DNA of 64,000 nucleotides from Aminobacter niigataensis (GTDB lineage: Bacteria; Pseudomonadota; Alphaproteobacteria; Rhizobiales; Rhizobiaceae), in the NCBI RefSeq assembly GCF_014200015.1, contig NZ_JACHOT010000008.1:1-64000 (forward strand). The letters run 5' to 3'. Below are positions 56,882 through 62,060 of this stretch, piece by piece. Position numbers and translations under genes: made by a program. The notes beneath the pieces were generated by a model. That model made no database searches and was not told where the DNA came from. It was given only the letters and a program-made list of their open reading frames with translations. Each line of letters opens with the position of its first letter. The stretch's first letter is position 1.

Positions 56882-56989
56882 CCGGCTCCACGGCGCACGA
56901 TGAGTACCGGACCGCTGCGCTACCTGGAAGCGCGGACGCGGCAAGGGCCGGCGGGCAACAATTGCGCCCGTTTGCCTATCGACATATTG

Positions 56990-57009
56990 ACATAAAGATG
57001 TCTTTATGT
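56990..57009. promoter_or_regulatory. Palindrome ACATAAAG-ATGT-CTTTATGT upstream of metH
   Basis: A perfect 8-bp-arm inverted repeat overlapping a TTGACA (56987-56992), 34 bp before the metH start. The sequence resembles the operator I recall for SahR, an ArsR-family repressor of methionine-cycle genes in Proteobacteria. That identification is from memory and no sahR gene lies in this window. Confidence 0.5.
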
Positions 57010-57042
57010 GACCTGACGGCTTTGTCGCCGAAAGGACGTAAA

Positions 57043-60852
<3,810 letters not shown>

Positions 60853-60904
60853 TCGGAGCAGCTTTAGGCGCTTGACTTGTCAATGCGCGCCTATAGCTTG
60901 CCGC

Positions 60905-61140
60905 GTGGTTATGGTTCTCCCGCCTCTCGGCGGGAGCTAAGAGGGAATTCGGTAGAAGCCGAAGCTGCCCCGCAACTGTGAGCGGTCAGGGCATGGTCCC
61001 GAAAAGTGGTTTCCGCTTTTCGGAAACGATCATGCCCAATGGTGAATAGCCACATTGCCCACCACGTCACTGGCATGGAGCCGGGAAGACGGGCGATGAA
61101 GCAACGACCCGCGAGCCAGGAGACCTGCCTGACCAAGTGA
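60905..61140 (+). ncRNA. Cobalamin riboswitch with an inserted palindromic repeat
   Basis: The conserved cobalamin-aptamer blocks are in order: a GGTTC helix near 60914, AGGGAATTCGGTAGAAGCCGAAGC near 60942, the GCTGCCCCGCAACTGTGAGCGG core (60964-60985), CACTGG near 61068, CCGGGAAGACGGGCG (about 61081), and the B12 box GCGAGCCAGGAGACCTGCC at 61111-61129. It should bind adenosylcobalamin and reduce expression of the following CbiX/ferredoxin gene. The segment between the core and CACTGG is about 80 nt, lengthened by the 49-nt repeat at 60989-61037. A weak promoter (TTGACT 60872, TATAGC 60892, short 14-bp spacer) lies upstream. Confidence 0.93.
60989..61037. repeat. Palindromic intergenic repeat inside the cobalamin riboswitch
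   Basis: GGGCATGGTC (60989) pairs with GATCATGCCC (61028-61037) with one mismatch, and an inner stem CCGAAAAG/CTTTTCGG lies at 60999-61006 and 61016-61023. The unit is of a kind I recall as abundant between rhizobial genes. It lies in the variable stem of the aptamer. Confidence 0.7.
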
Positions 61141-61250
61141 GGTTCCGTGGGCGGGGTGTACCACAGGAGCGCGGATTGAAACGGTAGCCATCCGGCACCG
61201 GCTTTGGCCTGCGTTGCTGCAATCCCGCTACGGCTGGTCAGGGATTGCAG

Positions 61251-62060
61251 GTGTCGAACTCAAGCGAAAACAACTCCGCGCCGCAAAGGCATGTGCTGCT
61301 GGTCGCCAAGTCGGCCTTTGCCGCTGCGCCCTACAGGCAGATGCAGCGCCTTGCCGAGCTTGCGGCCACGCTGCCAGGTGTCGCCGGCGCCAGCTTCGGC
61401 TTCACCGAGCAGGGCACGCCGTCGCTGCGAGAGGCGCTCGGAGCCCTGCGTGAGGCCAGCGCCTCCGACATTCTCATCCTGCCGCTGATGCTGCCGATCG
61501 AGCCGAGCTTCACCGCCTGGCTCACCAAGTCGCTGCGTCGATGGCAGGCCGAGGATGGTGCGCAATGGCCCAATGTCCGCATCGCACAGGGCCTCGCCGA
61601 AAGCCCGCTCTTGGCAGCCCTCATGGCCGGGCTTGTCGAAACAGCAGAAGTCGCAGCCCCTGTTCCGCCTGCCGAAAAGCTGGCGCCGGAGGGGTCGCTG
61701 ATCCCGGCCCAGAAGCGCCGCGTGCTGGTCTGCCAGGGCGGCCCGTGCAACGCCGCCGGCGCCGATCTCATCTGGGGCCACCTGCGCAACCAGCAGGACC
61801 GCCAGAAGCTGCGCACGACAGGCGACGGCACCATGAGCTGCAAGTCGACCTGCCTCGGCCCCTGCAACCTCGCCCCCGTCATCCAGGTCTTTCCCGAGGG
61901 GACCTATTACGGCGGCGTCACCGAGGCCGCCATCGACCGCATCGTTGCCGAGCACCTGCTCGGCGGCCGTGTGGTCGATGAGTTTGCCTACGAGCCAACC
62001 GGTCGCAAGCAGACGCTGCGCGCTGCCGCTCCTGTCAAACCCTCGCTGGCCAAATCCTAG
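61251..62060 (+). CDS. CbiX-like domain fused to a [2Fe-2S] thioredoxin-like ferredoxin domain
   Basis: A 269-aa two-domain protein. Residues ~12-120 resemble a CbiX/sirohydrochlorin-chelatase half (HVLLVAKSAFAAAPYRQMQRLAELAATLPG, DILILPLMLPIEPSFTAWL). Residues ~155-250 form a thioredoxin-like [2Fe-2S] domain with four cysteines placed in RRVLVCQGGPCNAAGAD and SCKSTCLGPCNLAP. Following the cobalamin riboswitch, a role in cobalt insertion, cobalt trafficking or corrin redox chemistry is likely. I start at the GTG at 61251 with CAGGGA about six bases upstream; TTG at 61245 is an alternative. The exact reaction is not established. Confidence 0.82.
   Translation: MSNSSENNSAPQRHVLLVAKSAFAAAPYRQMQRLAELAATLPGVAGASFGFTEQGTPSLREALGALREASASDILILPLMLPIEPSFTAWLTKSLRRWQAEDGAQWPNVRIAQGLAESPLLAALMAGLVETAEVAAPVPPAEKLAPEGSLIPAQKRRVLVCQGGPCNAAGADLIWGHLRNQQDRQKLRTTGDGTMSCKSTCLGPCNLAPVIQVFPEGTYYGGVTEAAIDRIVAEHLLGGRVVDEFAYEPTGRKQTLRAAAPVKPSLAKS

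Follow-up and report, generated by a model that had tools for sequence, protein, structure and literature searches.

The window, a 64,000-nt stretch of the Aminobacter niigataensis genome (G000), carries a cobalamin riboswitch that lies between metH, encoding B12-dependent methionine synthase, and a gene whose product joins a CbiX domain (28.2 bits against a Pfam cut-off of 22) to a thioredoxin-like 2Fe-2S ferredoxin domain (Table 1). The latter gene starts at TTG 61245 or GTG 61251, and its two domains mark it as a gene of B12 or cobalt metabolism 3' of the riboswitch. No other Rfam match in the 64 kb reaches the gathering threshold; the riboswitch spans all 189 positions of the RF00174 model, its 95.1 bits compare with a gathering score of 31.5, and it was recovered again by genome searches. 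Within the alignment to the model, a block of ~60 nt was left unexplained. The remaining elements of the aptamer could be placed. The stem closing the arm, GCGG/CCGC, lies at the ccgc of the Rfam consensus and its pairs reached probabilities of 0.98, 0.98, 0.67 and 0.36 in a fold of the subdomain. Directly 3' of the match is a putative hairpin, which we take to be P13, whose loop GCGGGG (61151-61156) is able to kiss the complementary CCCCGC of L5; both letter sets are the same in seven of nine orthologues and read TCCCGC with TCGGGG in the other two. We assume that this pair plays the part of the L5-L13 kissing interaction. Further downstream, a hairpin over the translation start is a plausible, fold-based candidate for the expression platform, and an imperfect one in the orthologue of genome G009, where its 5' arm carries a substitution and the hairpin is absent from the minimum free energy (MFE) structure.

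Table 1. Features of the riboswitch locus, in positions of the window
Feature	Position	Strand	Evidence
Upstream gene, B12-dependent methionine synthase metH	56962..60852	+	ORF; Pfam PF02965, PF02574, PF00809, PF02607, PF02310
Cobalamin riboswitch aptamer RF00174, insert included (253 nt)	60894..61146	+	cmscan 95.1 bits, E 2.1e-22
L5 kissing sequence CCCCGC	60968..60973	+	complementary to 61151-61156
Stem closing the arm, 5' strand GCGG	60982..60985	+	partner CCGC 61109-61112
Inserted segment, 62 nt replacing 2 nt (net +60)	60986..61047	+	empty-site alignment, 7 orthologues
49-nt palindromic repeat GGGCATGGTCCCGAAAAGTGG-TTT-CCGCTTTTCGG-AAAC-GATCATGCCC	60989..61037	+	folds, repeat matches, family alignment
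10-nt 3' tail AATGGTGAAT	61038..61047	+	only in the two filled riboswitches of nine
Small predicted hairpin TGGT-GAATA-GCCA	61040..61052	+	MFE fold of both filled riboswitches
Native variable stem, 5' strand CATTGCC	61053..61059	+	partner GGCGATG 61092-61098
Conserved GTCACTGG block	61066..61073	+	sequence, CM alignment
Putative P13 hairpin GTGG-GCGGGGTGTA-CCAC	61147..61164	+	sequence in 9 orthologues
Candidate expression-platform hairpin TGCAATCCC...GGGATTGCA at start codon	61218..61249	+	fold of 61147-61270, G006, G009
Downstream gene, CbiX + thioredoxin-like 2Fe-2S ferredoxin domain	61245..62060	+	ORF; Pfam PF01903, PF01257

Alignment of the nine orthologous riboswitches resolved the extra length into a single step of +60 nt. 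This step is filled in the window and in Aminobacter aganoensis DSM 7051 (G006; Phyllobacteriaceae, Hyphomicrobiales; the site is also on NZ_JACHOU010000006.1) and empty in the other seven (G009, G007, G001, G003, G005, G004 and G002), so the ancestral riboswitch of the genus lacked the extra length, in agreement with an earlier note on this DNA, which took it for an insertion. Across the genus, the 72 cobalamin matches measured 180-215 nt with only two exceptions, the window (253 nt) and G006:C6:184804-185057 (254 nt). The tenth genus genome, G008 (81% complete), had no orthologue at E<=1e-20, and the site is empty in G016, which belongs to another genus of the same family. Each of the eight orthologues outside the window has a cbiX-type gene next to it. 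metH lies upstream of the riboswitch in G006 and G009 and is adjacent also in G004; the stretches examined around the other five gave no metH match. The cbiX-ferredoxin gene 3' of the empty riboswitch of G009 (L182:4790-5176) matches in two pieces only (residues 1-80 and 210-267) and looks internally deleted, its riboswitch still being conserved. Because only two carriers are known, the step probably goes back to one insertion event.

From 5' to 3', the insert consists of TCA, the 49-nt palindrome and AATGGTGAAT, with junctions uncertain by 1-2 nt. The earlier note had described a cobalamin riboswitch with a repeat inserted between GCAACTGTGAGCGG and CACTGG, a description that the RF00174 match and the seven empty orthologues bear out. 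The palindrome lies where the note put it and folds on itself; as to the extent of the insert, the 49 nt stood, and TCA in front and AATGGTGAAT behind have to be added. Alone, the palindrome (GGGCATG...CATGCCC) forms a 21-bp hairpin with a 4-nt bulge at -31.7 kcal/mol. Together with its flanks (60984-61070) it reaches -38 kcal/mol (z -4.6), and none of 200 shuffled sequences was as stable. AATGGTGAAT is possibly the repeat's own 3' tail; if such a tail is a normal part of the unit, the 10 extra bases of the riboswitch may have come in with it.

The same palindrome is scattered over many genomes. BLAST of the locus against 101 genomes found the repeat alone, without a riboswitch, in many places. 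Among the matches listed were two in the window's genome (G000:C3:342298-342350, 83%, E 3.1e-8; G000:C1:595346-595397, 83%, E 4.6e-6) and others at 80-90% identity in further genomes of the genus, the family and the order. We built a model, R1, from 20 copies with the consensus GAGCATGATCCCGAAAAGTGGnnACCGGTTTTCGGaaAAGATCATGCTC; the window copy is one of the 20, and its own score therefore holds by construction. With 150 candidates scored per genome, which makes all counts lower bounds, the window's genome had at least 27 rows at E<=0.01. Once opposite strands were collapsed, these amounted to at least 19 places including the window, in line with the earlier statement that the unit recurs elsewhere in the genome. 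At E<=0.001, each of the ten genus genomes had at least 19-82 rows, giving at least 394 in the genus with opposite-strand duplicates counted. In all ten the family is a dispersed, multicopy inverted repeat. Cover of the copies by open reading frames is uninformative in this GC-rich genome; when 10 of the 21 ORFs covering other own-genome copies were searched with Pfam, no domain overlapped a copy, and the two ORFs with a domain had it downstream of the copy.

Rfam scans detected no riboswitch at the 18 other own-genome copies with 1.5-kb flanks and none at 20 copy loci from other genomes, 18 of which have flanks of ~80 nt, too short for a full one; both scans together returned three tRNAs only. 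A pattern combining the exact cobalamin core with the element gave 0 loci in a genome collection from which the window's own and near genomes may be left out. A second subfamily occurs in the window's genome at L132, L133, L136, L139, L141 and L149 (positions about 1500-1600). Its arm reads CGAAAATCG instead of CGAAAAGTGG, most members reading GCATGACCC.CGAAAATCG, and five of the six loci share a GCGTCCTTTGCGCG motif at a similar distance 3', with a near variant in L132. One weak copy in the same genome (L147:1501-1557) lies between two tRNA genes.

The riboswitch is not the only place where relatives differ by such a unit, as two more filled and empty sites separate G000 from G006. At L135, a palindrome with a 3' tail whose letters are unlike AATGGTGAAT is present in the window's genome and the site is empty in A. 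aganoensis. At the other site A. aganoensis has a unit of ~110 nt, a palindrome beside a second palindrome, and the window's genome is empty. As compared between these two genomes only, both sites would fit recent movement. A ~110-nt unit reads as palindrome, spacer and second palindrome (TAGAGCCCCATTCCGATT...AATCGGAATGGAAC.GGCTCTAA) at L183:1380-1490 of G006 and L130:1444-1554 of G000, and its TAGAGC/GCTCTA ends suggest, at the level of sequence, a composite mobile element. The riboswitch site has no clear target-site duplication; by eye, one other site has AGAGC at both insert ends and AAAGC in its empty counterpart. A search for the Y1 (HUH) transposase domain PF01797 (Y1_Tnp) was negative in all ten genus genomes and positive in 5 of 14 control genomes, and we rejected a RAYT-driven REP element for the genus on this ground. 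Taking a few hundred copies in the genus, and riboswitches as a few tenths of a percent of its intergenic DNA, we roughly estimate that chance would produce about one such insertion, so that targeting need not be invoked.

We next consider what the insert does to the fold. In arm folds, which are secondary-structure predictions without pseudoknots, the native stem CAUUGCC/GGCGAUG has a pairing probability of 0.97-1.0 in both carriers and in the empty G009, and a corresponding stem appears in the covariance model (CM) alignment of G009. In both carriers the repeat is predicted to fold as its own helix, separate from this stem, with the small TGGT-GAATA-GCCA hairpin between the two. CM alignments locate the insert badly, and not at the same point in the two carriers; the empty sites place it well. 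The earlier note had the repeat occupy the variable stem, which does not hold: the native stem comes after the insert, has the same sequence in both carriers and pairs with a predicted probability near 1. Nor is the repeat an extension of a peripheral stem, as also proposed. In these predictions it is a new, separate helix beside the variable stem, added to the 5' strand of the internal loop that separates the native stem from the GCGG/CCGC stem, which converts the internal loop to a multi-helix junction and neither replaces nor lengthens the native stem. Pairing of the AATGGTGAAT tail with the native strand (CAAU(G)GUG with CACAUUG), which would block the native stem, was rejected, its probability being 0.00 in both carriers.

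The aptamer around the insert has hardly changed between the carriers. From 61046 to 61146 there are 0 differences in 101 positions, plus one gap, and none in the 35 positions of 61039-61073; the 5' side (60894-60985) has 6 in 92, against 131 differences at 645 fourfold sites of metH. Compared with the empty G009, each carrier differs at 5/91 and 6/100 positions in the same aptamer parts, so change has not been faster in the carriers. This points to continued selection on the aptamer since the carriers split, and the filled riboswitch presumably works. The insertion thus looks tolerated, as had been suggested before.

We regard as highly probable a tolerated single insertion of a mobile palindromic repeat into a permissive joint of a working riboswitch, whose function we infer. 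A mobile non-coding repeat, made of the palindrome and a short 3' tail, would have inserted once, in the common ancestor of the window's species and A. aganoensis, upstream of the CbiX-ferredoxin gene, into the riboswitch joint that links the GCGG/CCGC stem to the CAUUGCC/GGCGAUG stem. The repeat RNA would fold on itself and so add an independent helix of ~20 bp; the core, the native arm and the L5-L13 kissing sequences being unchanged, the switch would be under selection and presumably works. The filled riboswitches differ from their seven empty orthologues by the insert, the rest is conserved, and the insert is predicted to fold independently. In the cell the RNA would fold in this way, regulation would be unchanged, and the repeat would have moved in the manner of a miniature inverted-repeat transposable element (MITE).

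The A. aganoensis copy bears on whether the hairpin has since been put to use. It scores 23.4 bits with R1 and is absent from the R1 matches listed for its genome; its place in the family would follow largely from its position, the shared tail and a gapped alignment to the window copy. In that alignment, over 49-50 nt, 8 substitutions and 5 indel bases separate the two copies, a divergence close to the metH fourfold-site rate. When the 86-nt A. aganoensis insert region was used as a query, two matches ran along its length, the region itself (E 5.5e-39) and the window (E 7.1e-17). Among the matches listed the next best had E 0.02, most of the others covering only 17-19 nt of the riboswitch core and a few lying as short matches inside the hairpin (for example, 92% over 24 nt, E 0.04). 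Overwriting of this copy by another repeat was rejected: at E<=1 the genus offered no full-length donor, only short matches.

An alternative, which we judge unlikely, is that the hairpin was taken over, with the extra helix selected for stabilising the arm or for tuning folding or the ligand response. After all of its changes the A. aganoensis hairpin still has 20 bp and -24.4 kcal/mol. Drift simulated from the window copy left a hairpin as stable in 23-234 of 4000 runs over six settings (0.6-5.9%); with the family consensus as the starting point, 0-9 of 4000 runs did so. This hints that pairing has been kept in A. aganoensis, in a test that comprises one species pair and in which the window copy or the consensus stands in for the true ancestor. 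Both copies also have a CCGC that pairs where the CCGG of the family consensus leaves a G-G mismatch. Against this, the sequence divergence of the hairpin is about that of the fourfold sites, and the 234 of 4000 obtained under the least strict drift setting is not significant at 5%. The CCGC variant is shared by L094, a copy that lies in no known riboswitch; lower in its stem the A. aganoensis copy carries a G-G mismatch; and seven relatives do without the insert. Moreover, hairpin-templated quasipalindrome correction during DNA replication keeps palindromic DNA paired with no RNA role and no selection on the RNA. We therefore think it improbable that the pairing of the hairpin, and not its letters, was conserved after the species split and that the hairpin changes the folding or response of the aptamer. 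If it did, mobile DNA would have supplied a riboswitch with one of its helices.

The insertion might instead have damaged or disabled the riboswitch and persist as a slightly harmful relic. It is large and sits within the aptamer arm, and at 95.1 and 95.9 bits (the window and A. aganoensis, respectively) the carriers score ~14 bits below the empty orthologue in G009 (109 bits). We nonetheless consider damage very unlikely, as the kissing sequences and the native stem are intact and the aptamer has stood almost still since the carriers split, far below the pace of the fourfold sites.

Long joints at this place are found in other riboswitches too. A scan for them returned six loci, from A. aganoensis, Methylobacterium, Blastochloris, Caulobacteraceae, Hyphomonadaceae and Rubritepida. 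The five hairpins outside Aminobacter look unrelated by eye, and Rfam confirmed Blastochloris only, with a joint identical to that of L172. A looser pattern matched 10 of 397 genomes in the order. Besides the window these were nine, of which three had an Rfam cobalamin riboswitch (L166, L169 and L172); L169 has a normal joint, matched only via a second CACTGG, so that two of the three are truly long, both with other hairpins. In Blastochloris sulfoviridis the joint of the long-joint riboswitch holds a palindromic hairpin of another sequence, GGATCGCGAAGCGATC, and this genome (L180/G455) has 133 rows of R1-like elements. The joint thus seems to accept extra hairpins of several origins, and long joints with unrelated hairpins support tolerance. 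An ordinary lineage-specific expansion of a variable arm that resembles the repeat by chance, although it could appeal to the unrelated-looking hairpins at this place in other Alphaproteobacteria, is barely credible and already contradicted by 80-90% identity over ~50 nt to many dispersed copies and by a sharp +60-nt step whose flanks align on either side.

That cobalamin riboswitches can have extra stems is in itself well known. To our knowledge, riboswitches differ widely in their peripheral stems, and where such a stem came from can seldom be told. With a tolerated insertion, two related soil bacteria would provide a clean natural example of a riboswitch gaining a new arm, one that arose in a single step from mobile DNA of a known donor repeat family at a tolerant joint. 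At this site a hairpin can be added, and with the natural pair of filled and empty riboswitches one can readily test how well the cobalamin aptamer withstands large insertions at its periphery.

Among the openly licensed papers listed in literature searches, no title or opening of an abstract names a mobile repeat inside a riboswitch and none gave a sequence match to the repeat family, and the available parts of two MITE reviews (PMC2229807, PMC10969869) name no MITE inside a riboswitch. As described in those parts, bacterial MITEs such as Correia, ERIC and RUP resemble the repeat in being short, dispersed inverted repeats that some related genomes have and others lack at a given site, and differ in that the repeat is shorter than the ~100-200 bp given for them. 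The available text of PMC10969869 also raises the possibility that MITEs could form riboswitches and points to potential T-box motifs of pneumococcal BOX elements, which is the reverse of a repeat inserted in a riboswitch. By description only, the likeness extends to the RIME and the A, B and C palindromes, intergenic repeats of Hyphomicrobiales some of which are palindromic (PMC2573895, in part). The window's riboswitch is like other members of RF00174 in its full-length match, its kissing sequences and the B12-related gene downstream, and unlike them in an extra helix from a mobile repeat; by length it is unique among the 72 genus matches bar its A. aganoensis orthologue. The available part of PMC2229807 describes, after Ogata et al. 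2002, Rickettsia palindromic elements (RPE) inside the genes for tmRNA and RNase P (M1) RNA, where, as here, a stem-loop palindromic repeat sits, possibly neutrally, inside a conserved structured RNA. The hosts of RPE are housekeeping RNAs and the repeats measure 105-146 bp, as against a ligand-sensing riboswitch and a repeat of 49 nt plus a tail in the present case, in which filled and empty orthologues could be compared directly. Palindromic repeats in structured RNAs are thus already known, and what is new is a well-resolved riboswitch case with its filled and empty orthologues.
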